Below are positions 14,788 to 31,493 of a stretch of 36,247 bases of DNA, piece by piece. The position numbers and the translations under genes are program-made. The stretch spans positions 1 to 36,247 of the forward strand of contig JAHYJK010000014.1 of the NCBI GenBank assembly GCA_019429225.1, given 5' to 3'. How positions within the stretch are numbered: the stretch's first letter is position 1; every line of letters starts with the position of its first letter. This DNA comes from Anaerolineaceae bacterium. GTDB lineage: Bacteria; Chloroflexota; Anaerolineae; Anaerolineales; Anaerolineaceae. Under the pieces are notes generated by a model. It did no database searches. It worked only from the letters and a program-made list of their open reading frames with translations, and had not been told where the DNA came from.

Positions 14788-15870
14788 TTAATAGTTAATA
14801 CGAGCTGGTCTTTCTATGCCATAACGGCGTAAAGCTGTATCCAGAATCATGTTTACCAATTCATGATGTTCGATACCTTCTGCAGCTGCTTCGATGACTA
14901 TATCTGAGATACCCGGGGAAAGACCGGGCAAGGGGTTAATTTCCAGAATATAAGGTTTCCAGTTATCGCTGGCATCCAACCGAAAATCAACACGGGAAAC
15001 ATCCAGTGCACCGGTGACCCGAAAGACGGCTGCAGCGTACCAATTGAGATCATCGATCATTTCTGAATCCAGGGGAGCAGGACAGACATAATTGAGTTGA
15101 TCAGCCAGGTCAACCTTTAATCGATTGCTATAAACGATATCGGTATCTTTGAAAGGTTCCAGATCCACTTCCATGGGAGGAAAAAAGTGCAATCCTTTCT
15201 GGATACGCGGTAAATTTTCATCATGGGGGAGGCGACGAGCAGCCGGGCCAACCAGGTTCCCTACCAGGCCGACGGTTACTTCACGTCCTTCGATGTAGCG
15301 TTCTGCCAATGCTGGTTGTTTATATCGTTTGAAGATTTCTGAGATCTGCTCTCTTAATTCGTGTTCATCCTTTACGATAGATTTTCCACTGACTCCCATG
15401 CCGGTGCCTTCACGGCTTGGTTTTACAAATAAGGGAAACTTTAAATCGTCATTGAGGGGTTCATCCACGCGTTCAAAGACTTGAAATTCAGGTGTTGGTA
15501 ATTCATGCCAATGGAAAATCCGTTTGGTCATGGGCTTATCCAGGGTTAGTGCCAGCGTCATTACCTTGGAACCTGTATATGGAATTCGCATCATTTCTAA
15601 AATGGCGGGTACCTGAGCTTCGCGCCCATCCCCAAAATGACCTTCGCAAATATTGAAACAGATATCCGGTTGATATTTCCTCAATGAATCAAACAGTGTT
15701 AGGTTTCCTTCCAAGAATTCACACTCATGTCCCCCGGTTTTTATTGCCTCTACAATTGCTGAAATGGTTTTTGTGGAATCCAGATCATCCCACTGATCCT
15801 CTGAGAATTCTTCAAATATTGGTGCATTTTCTTTGGCGTTAGCCAGCAAGGCAACCTTTAATTTTTTCAT
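14788..15870 (-). CDS. D-alanine-D-alanine ligase-like ATP-grasp enzyme
   Basis: This is an ATP-grasp ligase closely resembling D-alanine-D-alanine ligase, which makes the peptidoglycan dipeptide. The N-terminal domain has FNICEGHFGDGREAQVPAIL, followed by IPYTGSKVMTLALTLDKPMTK, the family's substrate and ATP-proximal region. The ATP-grasp core has FPLFVKPSREGTGMGVS, then AERYIEGREVTVGLVG. The C-terminal catalytic stretch is ALDVSRVDFRLD and LEINPLPGLSPG. At 360 residues it is close to family length. The typical HG-x-x-GEDG motif is replaced by EGHFGDG, so it may belong to a side branch with another amino-acid substrate. No murein genes flank it. Confidence 0.85.
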   Translation of the reverse strand: MKKLKVALLANAKENAPIFEEFSEDQWDDLDSTKTISAIVEAIKTGGHECEFLEGNLTLFDSLRKYQPDICFNICEGHFGDGREAQVPAILEMMRIPYTGSKVMTLALTLDKPMTKRIFHWHELPTPEFQVFERVDEPLNDDLKFPLFVKPSREGTGMGVSGKSIVKDEHELREQISEIFKRYKQPALAERYIEGREVTVGLVGNLVGPAARRLPHDENLPRIQKGLHFFPPMEVDLEPFKDTDIVYSNRLKVDLADQLNYVCPAPLDSEMIDDLNWYAAAVFRVTGALDVSRVDFRLDASDNWKPYILEINPLPGLSPGISDIVIEAAAEGIEHHELVNMILDTALRRYGIERPARINY

Positions 15871-16414: not shown

Positions 16415-16723
16415 ATGTTCAAAGCAGTCTGCCCAGCTTGCGGTGAGGATATTACTTTTGATGAAGACTTACAAATCGGGCAAAATACGGTTTGTCCCAG
16501 GTGCCAGGAATTATTGGCAGTTGTAATGACTGATCCATTGATCTTAGATCTTTACACATTTGCAAACGCTGCCCCGCAATGGTTTGATAGTGAGAAGCAG
16601 GAAGCAGCGAAGAAACATGAACGGAAGAACAAACATCGTCATATTGCAATTGATAATTACGATGAAGATTATTTGCGTAGATCAGGAAAAAAAATCCGAA
16701 ATAAAAATCGTATCGATTGGTAA
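16415..16723 (+). CDS. Small zinc-ribbon protein, LysW-like N-terminus
   Basis: This is a 102-residue protein with an N-terminal zinc ribbon: CPACGEDITFDEDLQIGQ and then CPRCQELLAVV. The two CPxC knuckles, spacing and acidic strand match the fold of LysW, the amino-group carrier of lysine/arginine biosynthesis. It lacks LysW's EDWGE end. Instead a helical, lysine/histidine-rich tail follows (KKHERKNKHRHIAIDNYDED), ending NKNRIDW. The tail suggests nucleic-acid or protein binding rather than carrier function. A good ribosome site AGGAG precedes the ATG. It is a single gene, closed by a strong terminator. Function unknown. Confidence 0.78.
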   Translation: MFKAVCPACGEDITFDEDLQIGQNTVCPRCQELLAVVMTDPLILDLYTFANAAPQWFDSEKQEAAKKHERKNKHRHIAIDNYDEDYLRRSGKKIRNKNRIDW

Positions 16724-16738
16724 ATACTTGAAATAATA

Positions 16739-16777
16739 AAAGGAGTTTTTGAGAAAATCCCTCTCAAAAACTCCTTT
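16739..16777. terminator. Strong bidirectional terminator
   Basis: A perfect 16-bp stem (16739-16754 with 16762-16777) with a 7-base loop starts with AAAGGAG and ends with CTCCTTT. It lies between two convergent genes (ends at 16723 and 16800) and is A-rich on the left, T-rich on the right, as expected for a terminator used in both directions. Confidence 0.85.
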
Positions 16778-16799
16778 CGCAAACATCTATTATTAATAT

Positions 16800-17957
16800 T
16801 TACTTACGAGCGCCATTCACAATCCAGATCCGAACTCGTTCGAGTTCTTCATCGCTAAATTGACCAGGGTGTTCGTTACCAGGCGCTTGAATTTGCATAA
16901 TCAGACTTTCGTCTGGTCTTCCTGGAATGACCGCCATACCACTGTCGCCACCTTGAATGATGCCACTGTAGGTTTTGACCGACAATCCACCAGATTCGCC
17001 ATGACAGAGCCCACATTTTTGTTCAAAGAGGTAATCGATACCGCCGTCCCAGCTATTGGCTACCATCATGTCTGGAGTCGGGGATGGAATTTGGGTAGGG
17101 AATGGGGTTGGTGTACGGGGCACAAAAACGTCCACCTCAGCATAAACCCGCGGAACGGTTGTTATGGCTGTTTCTTCATAATTCGCCAGGAATATAACCA
17201 AACCGACCATGAAGACAGAGAAAACGATGGATACTGGAGTAAATAACTTCATTCTCTTCTTGTAAACAACCGGATCAATCTCTGGTTCTGGTTCTCCCAT
17301 TTCAATCTTCTCTAATTCTGCGCCATGTTCTTCAACCATTTCATGGTGTGTCAAAAATCCTTTGAACATGGACCAATTCCATTTTTTGATGTGAACATGA
17401 TAGAAATGCCATAAAAGAATTGCCAATACAGCCAGGACAGCTTCGAGCCCATGTGCTACTTTTGCAGCAGGAACAAATTCGCCAGGAAATAATCTTGTTG
17501 TTAATATAGGGTTCCAGAGCATAAAACCGGTTAATCCCATCAGGAAATAACCCCAGATCATGGCAAGATACTCCATTTTTTCGGCATAATTGTAGCGCGG
17601 CATTTTTGGACCTTCTTTTCTCAGTCCAATGTTATGCAATAACTCATGAATTGCATCAAATCCGTCTTTGATACCGGGAATCATGGTGGCTTCTTTTCGT
17701 TTTACATACAGGAGATAAGCCAACAAAATGAAGTGATAAACGCCTTCCAGGAAAAATGTGATCGCCGCAATACGATGAATGATGCGAACGATTTCAATTC
17801 CACCCAGGAAACTAATCAGAGCAATCGAGACACTATTGAGAGCATATTTTTGAATCAATCCTGTGACTGCCAGGGTGGAAAATGACAGGATCAATAAAAT
17901 GTGTTCAAGACGTCTGGCGACATTAAACCGTTCGTATTTTTTATTATGATCAGTCAT
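16800..17957 (-). CDS. Cytochrome b (FdnI/b561-like) fused to monoheme cytochrome c
   Basis: This is a membrane protein of 385 residues with two parts. Residues about 1-270 form a di-heme cytochrome b domain of the prokaryotic b561/formate dehydrogenase gamma type, with four core helices. Candidate heme ligands include His in RLEHILL, RIIHRIAA, VYHFILL and LLWHFYHVHIKKW; a fifth helix precedes the export side. A Pro/Thr linker (PTPFPTQIPSPTP, about 283-297) leads to a small cytochrome c domain with one CGLCH near 315 and a late Met (QIQAPGNEHPGQF region). The role is probably quinol oxidation with transfer to a c heme in one polypeptide. It overlaps the nonaheme gene by 8 bp, so they form an operon. 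The c domain is homologous to the C-terminus of the protein at 19522. Confidence 0.88.
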   Translation of the reverse strand: MTDHNKKYERFNVARRLEHILLILSFSTLAVTGLIQKYALNSVSIALISFLGGIEIVRIIHRIAAITFFLEGVYHFILLAYLLYVKRKEATMIPGIKDGFDAIHELLHNIGLRKEGPKMPRYNYAEKMEYLAMIWGYFLMGLTGFMLWNPILTTRLFPGEFVPAAKVAHGLEAVLAVLAILLWHFYHVHIKKWNWSMFKGFLTHHEMVEEHGAELEKIEMGEPEPEIDPVVYKKRMKLFTPVSIVFSVFMVGLVIFLANYEETAITTVPRVYAEVDVFVPRTPTPFPTQIPSPTPDMMVANSWDGGIDYLFEQKCGLCHGESGGLSVKTYSGIIQGGDSGMAVIPGRPDESLIMQIQAPGNEHPGQFSDEELERVRIWIVNGARK

Positions 17958-19140
17958 GTTTAATTACCTCCTCACCTTCCACCGGAACTTCAACAGGTTT
18001 GGGTTTAATGAATTTCATCCGCAACCGGCGATAAGCGTCACTTACGACGAAGATTGCCATACCCCCCAGTACTCCAGGGATCAGGATTTGATAGAAGAGG
18101 GTTACATAATAAACGATAGGATAATTATCTTTGTCCGGAATGTAGTGGCTCAACCAGGTATCCGGGAAATTTGTAGTAGCATCCGGGTGACAGCTCTGGC
18201 AGGCTACCAACATATTCTGTTTGACAGAAAGTCCTTTGTTAGGATCATTGACAGAAAGAATATTGTGAATACCATGGCAATCGTAACAAACAGCTTTGTT
18301 GGTTGTTTGACCGGGTTCTGTGATTTCGAATAAGGTTACGGTAGTTCCATGAAAGTCAGCAACATAGGTATCCAGTACCTGAGTGGATAGACCATACTTG
18401 TCCATAATGGAAGCGTTGGTATGGCAACCAGCACATAAATAAACTGAGCTATTTCTAAATTCAGCTGTACTGGTATCTTCCATGGTATGGACACCATGGC
18501 AATCAATACAACCAGGCACATCCTGATTGTCATCCTTAATCATTGCTTCGCCGTGAACGCTGTTTGCATATTCCTGAAAAATTCCATTGTGGCAATTCGC
18601 GCAAACTTCAGAATGTTCAGTTTTAGTAAGTTCTTCCATGTAGGGTTGGGCATGTGGGTCATGACAGTTTGAACAGGTAGGTGCGTTTATTTCACCTTGA
18701 CTGAGTAAGAAACCATGGATGCTATCTTTTGTCTGGTTAGCCTGTACTTCATGACACTCAACACAGGCAGTATCTCGTTGAAGTTGATATTCATGCAACG
18801 TTCGAGCAGTTTTTATCGGGTGTGGAAAACCAGAAATATCTTTATGACATTGCACACAGCCAATCTGGTTTCGGTCATGTGTCGAGTCAGCAAAGTCAGC
18901 TAATTCTACTTGGATATATAAAATTTCTCCACTGGGTAGCTGTACCGGATTATACGCTTCTGCGTGACAACTTAAGCAATACACATTGGAGGTCGTGTCA
19001 ATTTGTGGTAGTGAACCATCTTCAGATTGTGCCACCACTTTTTCTGGTGGAATCAATAAATCCACAATTAAAAACAACATAACAATGGCAGTTAGGAGAA
19101 GAAGAATACGCCCAACGTTGAGGAGATTAATTCTCTTCAT
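17950..19140 (-). CDS. Membrane-anchored nonaheme cytochrome c
   Basis: This is a 396-residue multiheme cytochrome. The ATG at 19140 follows AAGGAGA. An N-terminal signal anchor (about residues 11-29) leads to an extracytoplasmic domain with nine CxxCH motifs in order: CLSCH, CVQCH, CVECH, CSNCH, CANCH, CIDCH, CAGCH, CYDCH, CQSCH. A second hydrophobic helix near 343-367 is followed by a basic cytoplasmic tail, so the protein is tethered at both ends. Extra histidines (GVHTMED, GIHNI, DPHAQ) offer distal ligands. It resembles cytochrome c3/NrfB-type electron wires rather than an enzyme: no known active-site motif such as CxxCK is present. It is co-transcribed with the cytochrome b fusion, which is the likely electron donor. 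Confidence 0.9.
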   Translation of the reverse strand: MKRINLLNVGRILLLLTAIVMLFLIVDLLIPPEKVVAQSEDGSLPQIDTTSNVYCLSCHAEAYNPVQLPSGEILYIQVELADFADSTHDRNQIGCVQCHKDISGFPHPIKTARTLHEYQLQRDTACVECHEVQANQTKDSIHGFLLSQGEINAPTCSNCHDPHAQPYMEELTKTEHSEVCANCHNGIFQEYANSVHGEAMIKDDNQDVPGCIDCHGVHTMEDTSTAEFRNSSVYLCAGCHTNASIMDKYGLSTQVLDTYVADFHGTTVTLFEITEPGQTTNKAVCYDCHGIHNILSVNDPNKGLSVKQNMLVACQSCHPDATTNFPDTWLSHYIPDKDNYPIVYYVTLFYQILIPGVLGGMAIFVVSDAYRRLRMKFIKPKPVEVPVEGEEVIKHD

Positions 19141-19277
19141 GTGTTTCTCCTTGTTCAAATGACAGATAGGGAAATCCCATTTTGTGAAAAAAACTTTCTT
19201 TTGAATTATGAACATTAATTATATATTAAAAAAAACATTTATTAGCAGCCAAAATTGCCCAATGAAAAAAAGGGCGT

Positions 19278-19293
19278 TGTGAATATTTTCACT
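19278..19293. promoter_or_regulatory. CRP/FNR-family-like site upstream of the cytochrome operon
   Basis: The sequence TGTGA-N6-TCACT matches nine of ten bases of the CRP-type consensus TGTGA-N6-TCACA, with a perfect inner GTGAA/TTCAC dyad. It lies about 138 bp upstream of the nonaheme ATG at 19140. CRP/FNR regulators often control anaerobic respiration genes. The regulator itself is not in the window. Confidence 0.45.
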
Positions 19294-19473
19294 TTGTTAT
19301 TCCTTTTTTACAATATGATATCTGTCTGTAATCAATTGATCGATATCCCTTTTTGATGATTATTAGGCTATTGAATAATATAGTTTTTACTTATAGAAAA
19401 AGCTGATTTTAAGATATGCCCTTATTTTCCGGCAAAATCACAACTCTTGTAAACAGAGAATCTTAATTAAAAT

Positions 19474-19504
19474 ACGAGACTGATTTTTCTGAAATCAGTC
19501 TCGT
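19474..19504 (-). terminator. Rho-independent terminator after the NapC-like gene
   Basis: A perfect 13-bp GC-containing stem (ACGAGACTGATTT with its complement, 5-base loop) lies 18 bp beyond the stop of the minus-strand gene and is followed on that strand by ATTTTAATTAA. It separates two cytochrome transcription units. Confidence 0.85.
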
Positions 19505-19521
19505 CGTGAGGCGAAACTTAA

Positions 19522-21222
19522 TTATTCTTGTGCGCCAGCATTTATCCAGGCAATGATTTGTTCCAATTGTTGATTGGTGAATTGACCAAAATGAGGAGGT
19601 TCGGTCTGTTGTGTCACAACCAGAAGACTATTTTCTGCATCGCCGGGGATAATAATTGCGCCATTATCTCCACCCTGCATAATGCTCTCATAACTACTGA
19701 GGTTGACCCCACCTAAACCACCGGCAGCATGGCAACTCAAACAGACTGTGAAAGAATTGGAGATGTTTGTGTAACTGGGGGGTATGCCTTCCTGTACCGG
19801 GACTTCAATTGGTTCCGGTGTGGGTGAAGATTCGATTAATGCACTGAGAATCTGACGTAATCGTGGTGCGTCAAAACCTGCATATTCCCAGGCCTGGCCA
19901 TGGCAACCAGAATTGCTACAAAAAGAGGTGTTACTGGATCCACCCGGATCACCCATAGTATGGCAATTTTCACAGGTATTATCAACTACTACGTGATGAA
20001 CGGTGATCCAATTGGTGTCTTTGTGCGATGAAGGTTCGATACCTGTGCTGATTTCAATATTGGTAACGAAATCTTCAGGCCTGGAGACGACCGGGATTGA
20101 GTGGCATAAGTTGCACTCCAACCTCACGGCTTCATTTTCATTTGAAAGATGTTTACCATCATGACAACGGAAGCAGCCTGGTGAGGTTAGATGTTGGCTG
20201 TTATCCGGATGTGTATCCCAACGCATTTCCTGATCGATGAACACATTCTCCTGGTAATATTTCCAAAGCACTTCTATGGTTGCTTCCAGATCTGCTCGAT
20301 ATTTTGCATATGCAATGGGGAAATTCTGTTCATAATTCGGGAGAAGTTTTTCAATATTTGCGCGGGCATCGTCGTAGGTTTCAAAATTTCCTTTTAAGGC
20401 AGTGACCGCATAATTCCGGATATAGGGAATATCTTTGTTGATTTCTCCTCTGGCTAACATATTTTGCACTGCCTGATCTGGATACTCAATAAAATGTGCA
20501 GTTCGATTATGGCAGGACATACAATCCATATTAACAAGTTCATCTTCTTTAATTTGACTGACATCAAAATCCAACTCTGTATCTACAAATTCAGTAAAAC
20601 TACCATCTTTATTAACAACACGGATATAAGGGATTTCCTGCATGCGCTCATCGGTCGGGTAAAATAGAACCGGATTCTCGATATGCCAATGAATACCAAA
20701 CCCTAATCCTTCGCGCTCACTGCCACCGCCTGTTTTCATAATCAGGTACGTTGTGGTTTCGGTATTATTTTCATCCTGAGCATAATGTTTGAAGTCAATT
20801 AATGTGTCATTAGAAAAAACCTGGGGATAATGACAGGTCTCACAAACATCTCTGGCAGGACGCATGTTACGCGCTATGATGGGATACTCATAATTATTGA
20901 GCACCATGGCTGAACCTGTTTGCCAGGAGTACTCAATTTTTCGAATAATCTGCGTTCCTAATTCAGCACGACCGAGGTGGCAATCCTCACAGGTGACTCT
21001 GGCATGGTCAGAATTGAGATGGGTAATGTATTGTGGAGGCATGGTATGACAGGTAGTCCCACAAAAGTCGATGGTATTGGTATATGCCCATGCTTCTGTA
21101 GAAAACAATCCTGCTGCGATAATTAAAAAAATTATAATTCCATAAGGTAAAAGCTTCATACCTGTGCTTGCTTCGGCTGGCGGGAGGAAGATTTTCTTAA
21201 TCCAATTACCCTTTTTTTTCAT
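19522..21222 (-). CDS. NapC/NirT-like membrane-anchored nonaheme cytochrome c
   Basis: This 566-residue protein starts at the ATG at 21222 (GAGGTG upstream). One membrane helix near residues 24-42 is followed by a NapC/NirT/NrfH-type region (FCGTTCHTMPP, then HARVTCEDCHLG), the class that takes electrons from menaquinol. There are nine probable c-heme sites. Seven are CxxCH (CEDCH, CETCH, CMSCH, CFRCH, CNLCH, CENCH, CLSCH). The first is CGTTCH with three residues between cysteines (21046-21063), and another is CSNSGCH with four (19900-19920). After a linker SPTPEPIEVPV near 470, the C-terminal module holds the last heme and is homologous to the c domain of the cytochrome b fusion. It is preceded by the decaheme gene and a terminator. 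Confidence 0.9.
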   Translation of the reverse strand: MKKKGNWIKKIFLPPAEASTGMKLLPYGIIIFLIIAAGLFSTEAWAYTNTIDFCGTTCHTMPPQYITHLNSDHARVTCEDCHLGRAELGTQIIRKIEYSWQTGSAMVLNNYEYPIIARNMRPARDVCETCHYPQVFSNDTLIDFKHYAQDENNTETTTYLIMKTGGGSEREGLGFGIHWHIENPVLFYPTDERMQEIPYIRVVNKDGSFTEFVDTELDFDVSQIKEDELVNMDCMSCHNRTAHFIEYPDQAVQNMLARGEINKDIPYIRNYAVTALKGNFETYDDARANIEKLLPNYEQNFPIAYAKYRADLEATIEVLWKYYQENVFIDQEMRWDTHPDNSQHLTSPGCFRCHDGKHLSNENEAVRLECNLCHSIPVVSRPEDFVTNIEISTGIEPSSHKDTNWITVHHVVVDNTCENCHTMGDPGGSSNTSFCSNSGCHGQAWEYAGFDAPRLRQILSALIESSPTPEPIEVPVQEGIPPSYTNISNSFTVCLSCHAAGGLGGVNLSSYESIMQGGDNGAIIIPGDAENSLLVVTQQTEPPHFGQFTNQQLEQIIAWINAGAQE

Positions 21223-21278
21223 AATGTTCACCTCGGAAAATTGATTGTGCTTTTTGGAACGATCGGATCTGAAATTAA

Positions 21279-21311
21279 AAAATCCCATGGGCTAATCACC
21301 CATGGGATTTT
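21279..21311 (-). terminator. Rho-independent terminator between decaheme and NapC-like genes
   Basis: A perfect 13-bp stem (AAAATCCCATGGG with its complement, 7-base loop) lies 12 bp after the decaheme stop, and the minus strand continues TTTTTTAATTTC. Only 56 bp separate it from the next start codon at 21222, so the following gene probably depends partly on read-through. Confidence 0.85.
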
Positions 21312-21322
21312 GGCTAAACTAC

Positions 21323-23476
21323 TTAGGGACGAACAAGACCAGTTACATCACCACCAACATCTTCAATTGAATCAAACAATACTTGTAAGATGTAAGTTGG
21401 ATTATGAGCAAAAGCTCCTGGATCTTTCATGGCATATTGGAAATTATAAGCTGCTCTGAGCAAACGTGGTGACCAGCTCTTGTATCCGTTACCATAATTC
21501 GCTTCATCAGGATCAGCTTCACCATTGGCATTGGTGTCATTGAAGAAATAAGGATATGTATGGGATTCATAGACCAATGGATTTCCTTGTTCTACTGATT
21601 TTGCTTTCAAAGCCTCATACAGTTTCTCAATGAGTGTCTCCACTTCGCCGGCGATACCTTCGGTGGCGCCATCACCATCATAATCTTCTGTTAATTTAAG
21701 GCGGATGGTGTCGGGATTATCAGTTTGATGACATCCCTGGCAGGTTTGTGTTTTGACATCGAGACCATGCACGTCATGGCAATCGACACAGGTGGAAAAA
21801 CCTGCTACGTGTGCAAATTGGCCTGCATATTCTTTGCCTTCATATTCATAAACACCTTTGACATCTGTGCCAAAGAGTGTTGCGCCAGCTGCAAAGTAGT
21901 GGACATTGCGGAAGCTGAGGCCATCTACTACAACATCAGGACCATTTGTCCCAATCACACGATTCACACTGACGGTTGACTCGCGACCCTGGTGACAATT
22001 GAGACACAGGTTAGCGGATGGTTTTTCAGCAAAACCAACTTTTGCCCCACTGGGGAAGGTGACGGTTTCCATTGCATAAACCGCAGGCCATTCAGCTGTG
22101 TTATGGCAGGATTCACACCATAATCCACTGGTCGGTGCATTAGAAATATTAACACCTTCTTTGATGAATTGTGGTAAGCCAGTAGCAGCGTGACATTTGG
22201 CACACGCGGCAGGTACAGCACCATCGGCATCCCAATGGCGCCAGGCTTCTGTGTTGCTGGCAAAGTGACCGGCATCATCACGAGCTGCGGTGCTCAGGTC
22301 TACTGGAGTGTCCACGACTGTATTGAGATCAGCGATAGAATCGTGTAAAAGCTGGACTAAATATTTCCCACCATGGGCATAACCACCGGGGTCTTTGCTG
22401 ACAGTCTGGAAGTTATAGGCTGCTTTGACCAGGCGAGGTGTCCATGATTTATACGCATTGGGGAATACTGCTTCGTCTGCAGTTAAATCGCCATCAGCAT
22501 TGGTATCATTGAAGAAATAGGGATAAGTGTGGGAATCATAACCAATTGGCATTTTGACAACTTCAGCAGCATAAGTCTGCATGGCTGTGAAGGTCATTTC
22601 TTTCAATCCTTCAAGCTCAAAGAATATGCCTTCAGCTACATCACCATCCCCATCGTAATCTACAAAGGAAGATGGTTCGCGTATGGCTCGTAAATCCTCT
22701 ACACTATTAGCTTCATGACATTGAGCACAGGTACCAAGTTCCAATTCCAAAGAATGGGGATTGTGACAATCCTGGCAGGTTTGTACACCTGGGACATGCT
22801 CGAAGAGTGTGTCATAGGTCATGCCATCATATTCGTATCCGCCATTGACTTCTGTTCCATAGCGGCTGACGGCTGCGGCATAATAGTGAATATTAATGAA
22901 ACCTAGATTCTCAGATACGGTGTCATCATCCACACCAGCAGATGTAACGGCGTCATCAACCTGAACCTTGGATGCACGCCCCTGGTGGCAGGTCATACAG
23001 ACAGCTTCACTCCCCAGTCCGGTGAGTTCAACCCCAGAGGGGAACTTAACGGTCGTCAAAGCCATGGTGGCATCGTTGTGGCAGGTTTGGCATTCGATAA
23101 CAGTGTCAACAGGTGCGTTGGCATCAACAACAAACATCTCACTACCATCTGCACCGACAAAGTCCAGGAAACCACCGGAACTATGGCATGTGGCACAGGC
23201 TACAGGAACTTCCATGGGATCTTCTTCATCCCAATGACGAAAAGCTTCTGCTTCTTTGTCAGCATGGGGTGAGTTTTTCCACAATTCCTCAAATGGAGCG
23301 GCGACTGTTTCCGGCAGTTCCGGGCAAGGGGCAGGTTCTGGACAAGCCTGGGTGGGGGCCGTCACAGGAGCCTCTTCAACAGTAGTTTCTGGAGTCTGAG
23401 CACAAGCGGAAAGTAACAGAACCGCCAGTCCGAGGATTACAACTAAGGTGAATTTAATTTTTGAATTTACTTTCAT
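21323..23476 (-). CDS. Decaheme c-type cytochrome lipoprotein, duplicated pentaheme modules
   Basis: This 717-residue protein starts at the ATG at 23476 (GAGGAG upstream). A lipoprotein signal ends LLLSAC and is followed by a Pro/Glu-rich spacer, so it should be lipid-anchored on the outer face of the membrane. It holds ten CxxCH motifs in two sets of five: CATCH, CQTCH, CMTCH, CQDCH, CAQCH and CAKCH, CESCH, CLNCH, CVDCH, CQGCH. Each half repeats the same order, from RHWD...CxxCH through FPSG, CHQGR, HYFAAG/HYYAAA and YDSHTYPYFFNDTN to a helix ending in the KDPG region. The halves start near residues 75 and 405. Asp-rich loops (DYDGDGD, NDTNADGD) look like calcium sites. It is probably an electron wire or terminal reductase to extracellular acceptors; no enzyme motif is recognised. 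Confidence 0.9.
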   Translation of the reverse strand: MKVNSKIKFTLVVILGLAVLLLSACAQTPETTVEEAPVTAPTQACPEPAPCPELPETVAAPFEELWKNSPHADKEAEAFRHWDEEDPMEVPVACATCHSSGGFLDFVGADGSEMFVVDANAPVDTVIECQTCHNDATMALTTVKFPSGVELTGLGSEAVCMTCHQGRASKVQVDDAVTSAGVDDDTVSENLGFINIHYYAAAVSRYGTEVNGGYEYDGMTYDTLFEHVPGVQTCQDCHNPHSLELELGTCAQCHEANSVEDLRAIREPSSFVDYDGDGDVAEGIFFELEGLKEMTFTAMQTYAAEVVKMPIGYDSHTYPYFFNDTNADGDLTADEAVFPNAYKSWTPRLVKAAYNFQTVSKDPGGYAHGGKYLVQLLHDSIADLNTVVDTPVDLSTAARDDAGHFASNTEAWRHWDADGAVPAACAKCHAATGLPQFIKEGVNISNAPTSGLWCESCHNTAEWPAVYAMETVTFPSGAKVGFAEKPSANLCLNCHQGRESTVSVNRVIGTNGPDVVVDGLSFRNVHYFAAGATLFGTDVKGVYEYEGKEYAGQFAHVAGFSTCVDCHDVHGLDVKTQTCQGCHQTDNPDTIRLKLTEDYDGDGATEGIAGEVETLIEKLYEALKAKSVEQGNPLVYESHTYPYFFNDTNANGEADPDEANYGNGYKSWSPRLLRAAYNFQYAMKDPGAFAHNPTYILQVLFDSIEDVGGDVTGLVRP

Positions 23477-23642
23477 GAATCTCTCCTCATTAGAATGCAA
23501 AATAAAATCGGGTAAATATTTATAAATTTACTTATGGGCACCTCCTAGATTAAAATTAAATGAGAAACAAAACCAAGTATATCAACTTTCTTTTATTAAA
23601 ACAATATTAGAAAGCAGACCAATTTTGTCAAAATTGAATTAC

Positions 23643-26728: not shown

Positions 26729-27766
26729 TTATAGCGTAAAAATCTTGAGGGGATGACCTGCGTTGAAGTACGTCAATACCCTTTCACCTGGCTGATAAAT
26801 CTCGGTATGTAATTTGAACACATGCACGATCGCTCCCGAATCCAATTCGACCCGATAGAAATTGAATGCACCACGAAAGAAACGGTTGATAATTTTTCCA
26901 TTGCCCTGTTGGTTTAATTGAAAGTCGATATCATCTGCCCGAATAGCGATTTCCACAGCAGTACCTGGAGAATAATCATTTTGCTGTTCCAGTAAGCCTA
27001 ATTCTGTATGAAAACCAGCAGGAACTGAAGTTCCGCGCACGAAATCACTGTCCCCCATGAAGGCTGCCACAAAACGGCTACCGCTATCATGGAAAATGGT
27101 TTCAGGGAGCCCGATTTGCTCCAATTTGCCCTGATTGAATACTGCCAGACGGTCTCCCATGAAGAGTGCCTCTTCCTGATCGTGGGTGACAAAAATGACA
27201 GTGGATTGAGAGGCTTTGAGAATATTGCGAATCTGTTCGCGGACTTCCAGACGCAGATGAGCATCCAGACTGCTAAATGGTTCGTCCATCAACAGCAAGG
27301 CGGGTTCGGGAGCCAACGCACGTGCCAGGGCAACCCGTTGGCGTTCACCACCGCTGAGGACGTGCGGGAATCGTTTTGCCAATGCTTCCACACCTACCAG
27401 TTCCAGCAATCCTGAGACGCGATCTTTCTTTTCTGCTTTCCTAAGACCTTGCAATCCAAAAGCAACATTATCAAAAACGGATAAATGCGGAAATAAGGCA
27501 TGATCCTGAAAGACCATACCGATGTTTCGTTTTTCAGGTGGGACAAACGTGTGCATATCACTGATGATTCGTTGATCCAGGCGAATAATACCCTGGTCGG
27601 GTCTTTCTAAGCCTGCAATCAAGCGCAAAGTGGTGGTTTTTCCACAGCCACTGGGGCCAACAAAGCAGAGTATTTCATGCGTTTGCATGGAGAATGTTAT
27701 GTTATCCACAGCAGGATATTGATTTCCTGTGAAGCGTTTGCTGAGTTGCTCAATTTCCAGTTTCAT
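26729..27766 (-). CDS. fbpC: Fe(III) ABC transporter ATP-binding protein
   Basis: This is the ATPase of an FbpABC-type ferric iron importer. Of its 345 residues, about 1-235 are an importer-type nucleotide-binding domain: Walker A GPSGCGKTT, Q-loop MVFQDHALFPHLSV, signature LSGGERQRVALARAL, Walker B LLLMDEPFSSLD and FVTHDQEEAL. A regulatory TOBE-like tail follows, as in FbpC/PotA. Its ATG overlaps the stop of the permease gene by 4 bp (27763-27766). Related importers for sulfate, putrescine or thiamine look alike; the partner binding protein and DtxR favour iron. Confidence 0.88.
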   Translation of the reverse strand: MKLEIEQLSKRFTGNQYPAVDNITFSMQTHEILCFVGPSGCGKTTTLRLIAGLERPDQGIIRLDQRIISDMHTFVPPEKRNIGMVFQDHALFPHLSVFDNVAFGLQGLRKAEKKDRVSGLLELVGVEALAKRFPHVLSGGERQRVALARALAPEPALLLMDEPFSSLDAHLRLEVREQIRNILKASQSTVIFVTHDQEEALFMGDRLAVFNQGKLEQIGLPETIFHDSGSRFVAAFMGDSDFVRGTSVPAGFHTELGLLEQQNDYSPGTAVEIAIRADDIDFQLNQQGNGKIINRFFRGAFNFYRVELDSGAIVHVFKLHTEIYQPGERVLTYFNAGHPLKIFTL

Positions 27767-29397
27767 TGTTTAAAAATGGACTCCCTCCGTAATAGAAAAA
27801 AGAGTGGGATGATGGCGATGACCACCAATAACAAAGCCGCTGGTGCAGCTTGAAAATAAAAACCTTCTTCAGACCAAATCCAGACTCGTACAGCCAGGGT
27901 TTCAAAACCAGCCGGGCGTAATAATAAGGTGGCCGGTAATTCCTTGAGTGAACTAAGAAAAACCAAAGCACTTCCTGCCAACAAACCAGGCAGAATGAGT
28001 GGCAAAGTCACCTGCACAAAGGTTTGAAACGCATTTCTTTTTAAAAGTCGGGATGCTTCTTCCAGGCTGGGAGACAGCTGGCGCATGGCTGATTCACTGG
28101 ATCGGACTGCCTGAGGGATATAACGGACAACATATGCCATGACAACTACCAGAGATGTGGCATATAGAAAAGGCAGGAAGCGATTGACCAGCATGACAAG
28201 GCTCAATGCCACCACCACTCCCGGGATGGCGTAACCTACCTGGGATAATCGTGAAAACAAGCGGGAAATTTTACCAGGGTAACGTACAACATAAATGGCG
28301 ATGGGTATGGAAAAGAGCACTGCCAGTATCGCAGCGAACCCGGAACTCCAGACACTGTTGAAGATGAAACTTACTAAACCTTTGGAACCGATCTGCATTC
28401 CGGAGAAGGTTTGATGATCCAGGATGCCCTGTGTGCTCCAGAAAACCAGTAAACCTACGGGAATGATGAAACTCACCAAAACCGTAAAAAATAATGCCAG
28501 AAATCCCCAGATCCTTCGTTTTCCAAGATGAATGAGGGCGGCTGGACGCCATTGCGATCCAATTTGCGTGAATTGTGCCTGACCCTGGATTCGAAATTCT
28601 CCGTACAGAATCACCAATGCCAGCAGAATTAAAACACCACTCAGAATAGATGCAGCTGAACGATCGTAGCGACCGGCTAATTGCACAAAGATTGCAGAGG
28701 AGAAGGTCTCAAAACGCAGTAAAGCAACCGTACCATATTCAGCCAGAATATCGAGAGAGACCAGTAAAGCACCGGCAGTGATGCCCGGACGGATGCTGGG
28801 GATGGTCACCTGCCAGAAAGTTTGCCAGGGTGTGCGCCCCAACATCCTGGCAGCTTCACCATAGGTAGCATTCAGAGATCGAAAGGCTGCTGCGCTTAAG
28901 AGGAATACATACGGATATGAAAAAATAATCAGCACAAATGCTGCCCCCCAAAAACCAGTTGGATTAGGCAAGAATGTGGATGGTATATTCAATTCTTCCA
29001 ACCATTGTGATATCAGACCCCCGCGTGGACGCAAGAGCGCCAGATGGATGATAGCACCTACATAAGGAGGGATGGCAAGCGGTAAAGCCAGAAGCCAGCG
29101 AAAGATTTTTCTTCCAGGCACATCTGTTCGTTCGGTCAGCCATGCCATACTGACACCCAGAAGAGTCGTTCCGGTGGTTACCGCAAGCAACAGTAATAAT
29201 GTGTTGCTGAATAATTTAATCAGGCGTGTCTGGATGATCCTTTGCCAGAGTTCTGGGTCACCTGTCAGCGCACGGATGAGAATGTATATGACCGGAATGA
29301 CTGCGAATAATGCGATCATTCCCGCCAGATATGCAATTTTGGGAGTGGATGTGGTATGTCTCCGGCGGTTTGACCGCAATGCTTCCGTCTTCAACAT
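27763..29397 (-). CDS. fbpB: Fe(III) ABC transporter permease, two fused domains
   Basis: This is a 544-residue permease of the FbpB/thiamine-iron class, containing two BPD_transp_1 modules in one chain. Twelve or so hydrophobic segments are visible. The first ATPase-contact loop is EAARMLGRTPWQTFWQVTIP (about residues 185-205). The second is EASRLLKRNAFQTFVQVTLP in the C-terminal half, giving the expected EAA motifs. The ATG at 29397 lies directly after the TAA of the binding-protein gene. Gene order binding protein, permease, ATPase is standard for Fbp systems. Confidence 0.9.
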   Translation of the reverse strand: MLKTEALRSNRRRHTTSTPKIAYLAGMIALFAVIPVIYILIRALTGDPELWQRIIQTRLIKLFSNTLLLLLAVTTGTTLLGVSMAWLTERTDVPGRKIFRWLLALPLAIPPYVGAIIHLALLRPRGGLISQWLEELNIPSTFLPNPTGFWGAAFVLIIFSYPYVFLLSAAAFRSLNATYGEAARMLGRTPWQTFWQVTIPSIRPGITAGALLVSLDILAEYGTVALLRFETFSSAIFVQLAGRYDRSAASILSGVLILLALVILYGEFRIQGQAQFTQIGSQWRPAALIHLGKRRIWGFLALFFTVLVSFIIPVGLLVFWSTQGILDHQTFSGMQIGSKGLVSFIFNSVWSSGFAAILAVLFSIPIAIYVVRYPGKISRLFSRLSQVGYAIPGVVVALSLVMLVNRFLPFLYATSLVVVMAYVVRYIPQAVRSSESAMRQLSPSLEEASRLLKRNAFQTFVQVTLPLILPGLLAGSALVFLSSLKELPATLLLRPAGFETLAVRVWIWSEEGFYFQAAPAALLLVVIAIIPLFFLLRRESIFKQ

Positions 29398-30447
29398 TTA
29401 TGGGAGATTCGCCATGTCAATCAAGTCAAAGGTCGCCTCGAAGTGGTTGACGACCTGAGCCAGTTCAATATTCGCCATGTTCAGCCCAACTATGGGTTCC
29501 AAATCCGGATGCAGGGCAACACCCGTCAGAAGAGGATATTCGTAATTTCCTTCGGCAAATATCTCTTGCCCTTCTTCAGATACCAGAAAGTCAATAAATG
29601 CTCTGGCAGCATTTAGATTTTTGGATCCTTTTATAATGGCAGCCGCTGTGGCATTGGAAATGATTCCCATCTCGCCAGGTGCCTGATCTGGATAAATGAT
29701 ACCGACATTGCTGCCTTCTGCCAGTTGCAGATAATAGTAATAATGATTGACCAGCCCTAACTTTAATTCACCAGCGCCTACTGCTTTGCGGACATCACTG
29801 TGACCTCCAAAGAAAGTCACTTCATTTTCTATTAATCCATTCAGCCAGGCTTCGGTTTGATCCTGCCCTACCAGCTGGATCATACTGGCAATCTGAGCCT
29901 GCATGGAAGCATTGGTAGATCCAGCAGCAGCAATTTGCCCTTTCCATTTCGGATCGGTCAGAGCGAACAGGGAAGCTGGTAGTTCATCCGGGCTGACCAG
30001 GTCTGTGTTGTACATGATGACGCGCATGCGCTGGGTCAATCCAACCCAGGATGCATCCTCAGCTTTATAAGCATCTGGTAGATTCTGATATCCAACTGGC
30101 TCATAAGGCAGGAAAATTCCTTCCCGGCTGAGTGCATACGCTGTAAAAACTTCTGTGGTGATGAATACATCCGCCTGGGGATTAGCTTTTTCTTCCAATA
30201 ATGTATTTGCCATCTGACTATTACTGCCTGACTTCAATAAGACTTCCAGCTGTGGGTATTTTGTCTGAAAAGCAGTCATCACGGGTTGGATCAATGGTTC
30301 TGATCTACCGGAATAAATAATCAATTTTCCGGATAAGGAATTTTCATTCTCAATGGATGAGATTGCATCCGGTTGGGAGGTAGAGCCAGCACAGGCCGAT
30401 AATATCAGGGTGATCGTAGCCAATACAGGCCAGAGTTTATGAAGCAT
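29398..30447 (-). CDS. fbpA: Fe(III) ABC transporter substrate-binding lipoprotein
   Basis: This is an extracellular solute-binding protein of the FbpA/Sfu class, anchored by a lipobox (LILSACAGS) near residue 20. It has about 349 residues from the ATG at 30447, which is preceded by AAGGAGA; an in-frame ATG 18 bp upstream is less well placed. The sequence KLIIYSGRSEPLIQPVMTAF is the family start, and the run of tyrosines HYYYYLQL near 233-236 matches the iron-coordinating tyrosine pair of FbpA. The conserved ends (GIISNATAAAII, FIDFLVSEEGQEIF) are normal. It is the first transporter gene after the DtxR gene, 47 bp downstream. Confidence 0.92.
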   Translation of the reverse strand: MLHKLWPVLATITLILSACAGSTSQPDAISSIENENSLSGKLIIYSGRSEPLIQPVMTAFQTKYPQLEVLLKSGSNSQMANTLLEEKANPQADVFITTEVFTAYALSREGIFLPYEPVGYQNLPDAYKAEDASWVGLTQRMRVIMYNTDLVSPDELPASLFALTDPKWKGQIAAAGSTNASMQAQIASMIQLVGQDQTEAWLNGLIENEVTFFGGHSDVRKAVGAGELKLGLVNHYYYYLQLAEGSNVGIIYPDQAPGEMGIISNATAAAIIKGSKNLNAARAFIDFLVSEEGQEIFAEGNYEYPLLTGVALHPDLEPIVGLNMANIELAQVVNHFEATFDLIDMANLP

Positions 30448-30494
30448 GGTTGTTCTCCTTGTCATTTTGTGGTCGTTAATGGTTATTGTTTTCG

Positions 30495-31163
30495 TTATGC
30501 TTCTACAGTAGATAAACGCACAAAAACAGCATGGCTGATCCAGGGAGCTAGCTGCAGGATGGGAAAGCCTTCTGGACGGATCAGGCAGGTGCCATTACTC
30601 TGGACAGCCAGAATCTGAAGAGTGGAACCTGCCATCACGCCGCTGTGGTTCAGAAATCTTCTTTCGGTTTCGGCGGTGTGAATGGAGGTGACGATGACCT
30701 TCTCACCTGCATTGCTCATGGATAAAGGCGCATCCAGAACAGGTTTGTCTGGTTGGGCAATAGGGTTGGTCGGTATGGGTTTGCCCTGAGGGGAAGTCCT
30801 TGGCGTACCCAGGAAAGATGACAATTTTTCTATCATCTCGTCAGTCACCATATGTTCGAGTTGGCAGGCGATTGTTTCTCCTTCGAGAGGTGAGTAAGCG
30901 AGATGTTCCACCAGAAAAACTTCCCATAAACGACGATTACGCAACAGGCGGGCAGCTTCGCACCGTCCAGTTGGCGAAAGTTCAACACCTTTATAAGGGG
31001 TGTAACAAATTAAATTGTTTTCTTCCAGCTTCTTGATCATCTGATTGGCGGATACGGGTTGGACCTTCAAACGTTCAGCCAGATGGTTCACGGGAACCGG
31101 GTTGATGCCATCCTCATTTGCCTGGGCAATTACTACCAGATACATTCCCTGACTATCGTTCAT
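30495..31163 (-). CDS. DtxR/MntR-family iron-dependent repressor
   Basis: This 222-residue metalloregulator has the DtxR architecture. An N-terminal winged helix contains VNHLAERLKVQPVSANQMIKKLEENNLI and YKGVELSPTGRCEAARLLRNRRLWEVFLVEHL. The dimerisation/metal domain has ACQLEHMVTDEMIEKL, which holds the C-x2-E-H ligand set of DtxR site 1. A C-terminal SH3/FeoA-like domain follows (SGVMAGSTLQILAVQSNGTCLI). It heads the fbpABC genes, so it probably represses iron uptake when Fe(II) is plentiful. AGGTAAG before the ATG serves as ribosome site. No full DtxR palindrome was found nearby; TTAGGTAAG (31179-31171, minus) resembles a half-site but overlaps the ribosome site. Confidence 0.9.
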   Translation of the reverse strand: MNDSQGMYLVVIAQANEDGINPVPVNHLAERLKVQPVSANQMIKKLEENNLICYTPYKGVELSPTGRCEAARLLRNRRLWEVFLVEHLAYSPLEGETIACQLEHMVTDEMIEKLSSFLGTPRTSPQGKPIPTNPIAQPDKPVLDAPLSMSNAGEKVIVTSIHTAETERRFLNHSGVMAGSTLQILAVQSNGTCLIRPEGFPILQLAPWISHAVFVRLSTVEA

Positions 31164-31388: not shown

Positions 31389-31493
31389 GTCCGGGTGGGG
31401 CCGGCGCGGCAGAAACCTTCGAACTTCGTCAGGTCCGAGAGGAAGCAGCGATAAGGAGGTACCTCTGGGTGCCGCCGGGAACCCTACCTGGAC
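31389..31493 (+). ncRNA. ffs: Signal recognition particle RNA, small bacterial type
   Basis: The about 105-base RNA contains the universally conserved SRP core GTCAGGTCC followed by GAGAGGAAGCAGC, in which the GGAA-like tetraloop region appears as GAGA. The 5' end GTCCGGGTGGGG pairs with the 3' end CCCTACCTGGAC. The 3' half has the typical GGGTGCCGCCGGGA, facing GCCGGCGCGGC. The length equals that of 4.5S-type SRP RNAs, which form a complex with Ffh for membrane protein targeting. A T-rich stretch (ATTTTTA) follows, then a methyltransferase gene begins 25 bp later. Exact ends are inferred from the pairing. Confidence 0.92.

Follow-up and report, generated by a model that had tools for sequence, protein, structure and literature searches.

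A conserved four-gene locus with 29 c-type haem motifs in an Anaerolineaceae bacterium, a candidate dual-entry module for electron export

Anaerolineae are frequent inhabitants of sediments, aquifers and digesters, and to our knowledge it is unsettled whether they respire solid acceptors or exchange electrons with partner cells. What, then, is the role of a quartet of multihaem cytochrome genes on the minus strand at positions 16800-23476 of contig JAHYJK010000014.1 (assembly GCA_019429225.1) of an Anaerolineaceae bacterium? The whole stretch of DNA analysed, 36,247 nucleotides in length, is referred to as the window. The four genes, designated LIPO, NAPC, NONA and BC in the order of transcription, are best read, with confidence somewhat above even, as a dual-entry electron-export module of a one-membrane bacterium, which would lead from the menaquinone pool to the cell surface. 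This reading draws on the sequences of the parts and on analogy with known systems. The genes are as follows.

21323..23476, minus strand: LIPO, decahaem lipoprotein of 717 amino acids (open reading frame, lipobox, haem motifs, structural model)
19522..21222, minus strand: NAPC, ImcH-like nonahaem protein (open reading frame, motifs, profile matches, helix)
17950..19140, minus strand: NONA, nonahaem c-type cytochrome (open reading frame, motifs, alignment)
16800..17957, minus strand: BC, dihaem cytochrome b of FdnI type, with one additional helix and, at the C terminus, a monohaem c domain (open reading frame, motifs, structure match)

The c-type haem motifs number ten in LIPO, nine in NAPC, nine in NONA and one in BC, giving the sum of 29 in four consecutive genes that had been claimed for this DNA in a note made from its letters alone (hereafter the original prediction). 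The motifs are not a product of chance, because among the 35 CXXCH found in the window by six-frame translation, 27 are the in-frame motifs of these four genes and seven lie beyond 16800-23500. In alignments unfiltered for haem number, the Cys and His of the motifs are invariant in NAPC (21 rows), NONA (13 rows) and BC (11 rows), and also in LIPO (14 rows), except for one sequence cut short (L040) and one that has lost a single motif (L026; L numbers denote related loci and G numbers genomes).

The reading frame of NAPC is open from 21288, and the start is most likely at 21222, following most relatives. It carries seven CXXCH, one CX3CH and one CX4CH motif, and its head matches PF03264 with 31.4 bits (cut-off 24.1), in agreement with the NapC/NirT-like nonahaem protein of the original prediction. 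The best match to a named family is NrfH (NCBIfam, 2e-13, 50.5 bits, below the model cut-off of 134), and the NrfH structure 2j7a_C is also matched (E 2.7e-11). One transmembrane helix is present at residues 46-64, and the CX3CH motif (C76-H81 of the open reading frame), invariant in 21 of 21 rows, lies beside it. The surrounding CGxxCHTM is invariant save for the two x, and its counterpart at haem 1 of NrfH is CTSCHIM, with CHxM in common. The C-terminal 100 residues or so form a monohaem c domain that is also carried by BC (35% identity). An atypical CX3CH beside membrane helices together with 5-9 CX2CH is the description given for ImcH homologues in excerpts of a survey (Zhong & Shi 2018, PMC6295460). 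NAPC shows this combination behind a NapC-type head, with seven CXXCH, and has one helix in place of the three N-terminal transmembrane helices of ImcH. The protein is therefore named ImcH-like, the Geobacter ImcH being compared by its described features only; NAPC appears to bear the ImcH signature, and is set beside ImcH by features and not by alignment with GSU3259. In the same excerpts, the table holds a single Chloroflexi entry for ImcH, and the text names one-helix homologues in Anaerolinea thermophila and Intrasporangium calvum (PMC6295460). A plasmid search with NAPC returned nothing but one planctomycete monohaem match.

NONA and BC overlap by eight nucleotides and have the appearance of a second known quinol oxidase cut in two. 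NONA, with nine CXXCH, likely starts at 19140 as in most relatives. The hydrophobic stretch at its N terminus closes with an almost invariant Ala (VVA|QS, A43) as does a cleaved signal peptide, and the double anchoring originally proposed is for this reason doubtful; a signal peptide and a single C-terminal membrane helix are probable. BC is the predicted cytochrome b-c fusion, consisting of a b part that matches FdnI, the cytochrome b of formate dehydrogenase N (1kqf_C, E 1e-11), and the monohaem c domain. His 18, 57, 155 and 169 of FdnI, which we take to be its haem ligands, align with H19, H61, H169 and H184 of BC, invariant in 11 of 11 rows. CbcL combines in one protein a nine-haem c part and an FdnI/HydC-like b part, with six helices, and the c-type part of the CbcL/MtrH/MtoC group holds 3-23 CX2CH, according to the excerpts of the survey (PMC6295460). 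Because NONA has nine such motifs and BC the FdnI/HydC-like b part with its conserved His, the pair corresponds in layout to a divided CbcL.

In a chosen set of 13 further regions, from the same family to the same phylum, BC adjoins NONA in 12, and the exception (L167) has a weak NONA match and no BC. The BC genes of L160, L162 (in two pieces) and L163 were found by a stop-to-stop search of the regions, by which the pairing was strengthened. Open frames of NONA matches above 400 bits in 400 Chloroflexota genomes reach at most 578 amino acids. Two of the 80 NAPC loci described below lack NONA and BC; downstream of their NAPC, behind an eight-haem gene, is encoded a protein of 901 (L089:14341-17046) or 908 (L107:14411-17137) amino acids with seven CXXCH and a C-terminal b561/FdnI-type domain (PF01292, E 4e-25 and 6e-23, respectively). 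A Foldseek search with NONA gave nothing under E 0.001, and its structural matches are too weak to classify it: hydroxylamine oxidoreductase with Z 8.5 (root-mean-square deviation 19.7) and MtrA with Z 6.3 (deviation 4.6 over 206), structures absent from the match rows not being thereby excluded. Comparison of the NONA profile with that of NrfA from the same genome gave a short alignment only.

LIPO, the candidate exit, has the ten CXXCH and the lipobox (LSAC, residues 22-25) of the decahaem lipoprotein that was originally proposed. It is composed of two pentahaem halves with 44% mutual identity, and is by sequence a tandem duplicate. An AlphaFold2 model (predicted local distance difference test score 87, predicted template modelling score 0.81) was compared with 43 chains preselected by Foldseek. 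Residues 54-390 were superimposed on Escherichia coli NrfA with Z 10.3, a root-mean-square deviation of 4.3 A, 254 aligned residues and 17% identity, followed by Geobacter lovleyi NrfA (Z 9.6) and octahaem nitrite reductase (9.2), the following row being at 3.9; by the aligner's own note, Z below about 13 can represent a common arrangement in helical proteins. In the model, the N half thus has an NrfA-like fold, and the C half is taken to share it because of the 44% identity. The statement that there is no MtrABC homology was too strong, since PF22113 (domains II/IV of MtrC/MtrF) reaches 34.2 bits against a cut-off of 30 in LIPO and NONA over short motif-rich stretches; it matches 22 of 42 LIPO proteins at 0.001, and no MtrC chain is present among the structure-comparison rows listed for LIPO. 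Over a span of five haems, LIPO is similar to NONA (hhalign probability 98%), a likeness that may stem from the common haem motifs. Calcium binding by LIPO is suggested by EF-hand-like loops of two types, DYDGDGD and DTNADGDLTADE, the C-half copy of the latter having been recognized by eye. Half-length forms of LIPO (about 375-410 amino acids, one pentahaem unit by match range) are present in G016, G049, G021, G052 and others of groups g10 and g15, and these genomes have no NAPC or NONA match at 0.001.

The conservation of the locus was examined by scanning 84,980 species genomes with two exact NAPC peptide patterns. A total of 263 stretches were found and the best 80 were kept, and the scan thus favours close relatives. 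The record titles of these 80 loci name Chloroflexota in 79 and an "actinobacterium" in one, in accord with the predicted Anaerolineae host. All four genes are present in 28 loci, NONA, BC and NAPC in 15, LIPO and NAPC in 18, BC and NAPC in one, and NAPC alone in 18; these counts are lower bounds because loci with short flanks were included. All 8 genomes of the genus (own included) encode a full-length NAPC, and the quartet is together in each of them, the BC frame overlapping NONA in G002 and LIPO being cut by the contig end in G006. Among 151 genomes of the order, in which only matches of at least 400 bits were scored as present, and weaker or partial ones (such as NONA in G569, G090 and G091) as absent, NAPC was found in 43, LIPO in 52, NONA in 47, all three in 21 and any in 71. 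Some NONA match at 0.001 is found in 50 of 400 genomes across the phylum, many of them weak. Larger alignments were made for LIPO (A5; 41 of 46 matches plus the window, with at least 10 haems and more than 690 amino acids, so that motif invariance is there by construction) and NONA (A6; 45 of 53 matches plus the window). Carriers are many bacteria, mostly uncultured, from sediment and sludge; relatives in cultured strains are found in Longilinea arvoryzae (all four genes, LIPO being separated by three others) and Anaerolinea thermolimosa (LIPO and NAPC).

The arrangement of the four genes as one unit is doubtful, because terminator-like hairpins follow LIPO, NAPC and BC and recur in relatives; a single operon was rejected on this ground. 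The hairpins in the window are as follows.

21279..21311, minus strand: terminator-like hairpin of 14 pairs, between LIPO and NAPC
19474..19504, minus strand: terminator-like hairpin of 13 pairs, between NAPC and NONA
16738..16778, minus strand: terminator-like hairpin of 19 pairs, after BC

In nine related loci (seven of the genus and two of the family), a hairpin with a T tract and an energy of -16 kcal/mol or lower was present after LIPO in 9 of 9, after NAPC in 8 of 9 and after BC in 8 of 9, in total 25 of 27, both misses being in one locus (L043). The same level was reached by 7 of 150 random stretches of these loci and by 1 of 27 shuffled spacers. A plain consensus scan of the region gave six sites against a shuffle mean of 5.6, an absence of excess that speaks against separate units; the three hairpins have the longest stems among these six sites. 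Transcription as three units (LIPO, NAPC and NONA-BC) is more probable than as a single operon, and termination between them may be partial. The parts, their conservation and linkage and the terminator-like signals between them are matters of observation.

The remainder of the genome, which is 98% complete, gives the setting. No Omp85 match was found in it, while 7 of 14 control genomes gave matches, in line with the prediction of a cell without a classical outer membrane. On other contigs are encoded NrfHA, an octahaem-FeS-NrfD (FeS, iron-sulphur protein) set, a caa3 oxidase with CtaA/CtaB, alternative complex III (ACIII), a Rieske/cytochrome b complex with 10- and 6-haem proteins and a nickel-iron hydrogenase, the names beyond Pfam matches being from reading of the translations. 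Oxygen and nitrite thus have electron-transfer parts of their own, which by argument leaves the locus for another role; its candidature as the sole quinol:cytochrome c step for the oxidase is weakened by the presence of ACIII. The octahaem protein of the set above, a NONA relative, lies with the FeS and NrfD genes (L154:8586-15624) between a sensor kinase and response regulators, and the set is possibly a regulated quinol module.

From the parts and their linkage, quinol oxidation, the direction of flow, the location at the surface and the acceptor may be inferred as follows. At one entry, NAPC would oxidize menaquinol at its NapC-type head and pass the electrons through nine c haems. At the other, the FdnI-type dihaem cytochrome b of BC would draw electrons from menaquinol, and NONA would carry them off the membrane. 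Lipid-anchored LIPO, with its two NrfA-like pentahaem units, could accept electrons from either entry and reduce an outside acceptor such as a mineral, a humic substance, a partner cell or a small molecule. The two Geobacter proteins divide the potential range, ImcH being used with acceptors above about -100 mV and CbcL with lower ones (PMC7096707, in excerpt), and a Geobacter mutant without both is unable to reduce Fe(III) oxide (PMC5585712, in excerpt); by analogy, a choice of entry according to the potential of the acceptor would be open to a cell with this locus. The quinol-to-surface chain outlined in the original prediction is thus retained as the best reading, in view of the NapC-type head, the FdnI-type b part next to NONA, the proteins of CbcL-like layout in L089 and L107, the lipobox and NrfA-like fold of LIPO, the linkage and co-occurrence of the genes, the lack of an Omp85 match and the separate parts for oxygen and nitrite. 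A more specific proposal, that ImcH-like and split-CbcL-like oxidases of different operating potential share a duplicated NrfA-like surface exit with no porin conduit, and constitute an undescribed extracellular respiration of Chloroflexota, is advanced tentatively, as somewhat doubtful.

Several observations weigh against the export reading. NAPC has one helix against three in the Geobacter ImcH, and the putative kinship of NAPC and NONA-BC to ImcH and CbcL is a matter of features. The c and b parts lie in separate proteins, NONA and BC, and not in one polypeptide, and the excerpts of the 2018 survey report no CbcL homologue in Chloroflexi (PMC6295460). The c part of the fused proteins of L089 and L107 is unmatched by the NONA profile, so that each is regarded as a stand-in of CbcL-like layout and not as a NONA-BC fusion. 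The fold of LIPO, with Z scores in the range cautioned about above, gave with Foldseek alone a match to NrfA at E 6.8. The p values for pairwise co-occurrence of NAPC, LIPO and NONA in the 151 genomes (Fisher p 1.4e-7, 3.7e-9 and 8.8e-11) take no account of kinship, each of the three is found without the others in some genomes, and in 18 of the 80 loci NAPC stands without LIPO, NONA or BC within the stretch examined. The terminators between the parts imply that co-expression of LIPO, NAPC and NONA-BC is not required. Finally, no cell-wall-spanning cytochrome was identified.

Three other roles were considered. LIPO might be a membrane-anchored reductase of the NrfA superfamily for nitrite, hydroxylamine or another soluble acceptor, fed by NAPC as NrfA is by NrfH, with NONA-BC as a second feed. 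The NrfA-like fold of its N half and the position of a NapC-type protein next to it, as in NrfHA, agree with this role. All ten motifs of LIPO are CXXCH, however, and CXXCK is present in none of the 14 unfiltered rows. Each half also has five additional conserved His columns (71, 197, 227, 241 and 368; 404, 526, 556, 570 and 691, of which 556 is outside the 90% conservation list), sufficient for bis-His ligation of all haems, and at haem 3 LIPO has CHQGR (read by eye), which does not correspond to the CHxEY present in the NrfA of this genome. The profile comparison of LIPO with this NrfA gave a short alignment only, in which H570 stands opposite the His of the NrfA SNH loop; it was counted neither way. 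The earlier view that no reductase active site is present therefore holds for CXXCK, but catalysis is still conceivable, because OcwA, of the same superfamily, acts through haem motifs other than CXXCK (PMC6703420, PMC7096707, in excerpt). A separate NrfHA is encoded elsewhere in the genome, and across the 80 related loci neither a match to its NrfA at 1e-5 nor a CXXCK in any open reading frame with at least three haems was found. A linked nitrite reductase, one of the findings that would have refuted the original prediction, was accordingly rejected, and the reductase role as a whole appears unlikely.

The cytochromes could instead serve internal routing, connecting the caa3 oxidase on the outer side of the membrane with the quinone pool, an NrfD module or a Rieske/cytochrome b complex, and no extracellular step would be involved. 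Among the 80 loci, Rieske and cytochrome b genes are neighbours in 18, FeS and NrfD genes in 25 and CcmF in 12 (BLAST, 1e-10), and the genome itself has the caa3 oxidase, ACIII and the Rieske/b complex. In the window, however, no Rieske/b, FeS-NrfD or CcmF gene lies beside the locus, ACIII could already cover the quinol:cytochrome c step, and a decahaem lipoprotein would be superfluous; we regard this role as quite improbable. Electron uptake, in which the same parts would run in reverse and supply the quinone pool with electrons from Fe(II), a cathode or a syntrophic partner, has very little probability. CbcL/MtrH/MtoC relatives are found in both Fe(II) oxidizers and Fe(III) reducers, but ImcH homologues are reported, in the excerpts of the survey, from Fe(III) reducers only (PMC6295460). 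The monohaem domains of NAPC and BC match FoxE (whole chain, E 4e-8 and 8.6e-6, respectively), but single domains reach just 20 bits.

Among the genes around the quartet, a D-Ala-D-Ala-ligase-like ATP-grasp protein (14788-15870) and a small LysW-like zinc ribbon protein (16415-16723) flank the locus in the window, and also adjoin it in congeners L021, L022, L023, L026 and L027. Upstream (26729-31163) lies an ATP-binding cassette transporter set (binding protein, permease and ATPase), putatively of the iron type by resemblance, accompanied by a DtxR-type regulator with an FeoA domain; the linkage of the transporter genes with the locus is retained in congeners L022 and L023. The bacterial small signal recognition particle RNA is located at 31393-31492 on the plus strand. 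In the related locus L063 (12168-13220), a six-haem lipoprotein of 350 amino acids with a collagen-like GPAGPAGP stretch lies beside NAPC, and relatives of it are found in 15 of the 80 loci, L063 included (BLAST, 1e-10). An octahaem protein is a neighbour in 23 of the 80 loci by the same search. In a class-level relative (L158:2792-8293), proteins with 22 haems (585 amino acids) and 32 haems (1243 amino acids) directly precede NONA-BC-NAPC.

With respect to known systems, the claim that the locus matches no named pathway does not stand, for NAPC has the ImcH signature, of which an Anaerolinea thermophila homologue is in print (PMC6295460, in excerpt), and NONA plus BC has the layout of CbcL. 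The locus is real, conserved and in part already named, and no published title or abstract describing an ImcH-like protein, a split CbcL-like unit and a duplicated NrfA-like lipoprotein as a set was found in searches of the open-licence PubMed Central literature. In common with ImcH of Geobacter sulfurreducens (GSU3259) and the A. thermophila homologue, NAPC has the NapC-type head, the CX3CH by the helix and several more c haems, and ImcH genes are often beside other cytochrome genes, as NAPC is. It differs from the Geobacter protein in its single helix, the CX4CH motif, the C-terminal monohaem domain and the linked CbcL-like pair. NONA and BC share with CbcL (GSU0274), MtrH and MtoC a nine-haem c part and an FdnI/HydC-type cytochrome b, and like CbcL have a total of about six helices (one in NONA and five in BC, four of the latter being FdnI-like), but are two overlapping genes with an extra monohaem domain on BC, and are set beside CbcL by layout.

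LIPO is comparable with several terminal cytochromes. MtrC is also a decahaem lipoprotein with two pentahaem units. The layout of MtrC and OmcA consists of two beta-barrel and two pentahaem domains, in association with MtrAB, and there is no sign of the beta-barrel domains in LIPO because its model has few strands. With NrfA/NrfH, the locus has in common the NrfA-like fold in the N half of LIPO and the NrfH-like head of NAPC, whereas LIPO lacks CXXCK and the true NrfHA is elsewhere in the genome. Variants of NrfA without CXXCK do exist. OcwA of Thermincola potens is a multihaem cytochrome at the surface of a Gram-positive cell, with an NrfA-type core as proposed for LIPO; it reduces iron oxides and, slowly, nitrite, and its nine haems are arranged in c554-like and NrfA-like cores (PMC6703420, PMC7096707, in excerpt). 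LIPO, by contrast, has ten haems in two like halves, and the OcwA layout was not found in it; the OcwA chain 6i5b is unmatched by the LIPO profile and is matched by the NONA profile (1.9e-8 over 66 residues). The locus supplies conserved genes, including those of cultured relatives, with which electron exchange by Anaerolineae can be tested. If the export reading is true, a phylum that lacks an outer membrane would share the two-quinol-oxidase logic of Geobacter and would combine it with a surface protein of NrfA-like type, as found in Thermincola.

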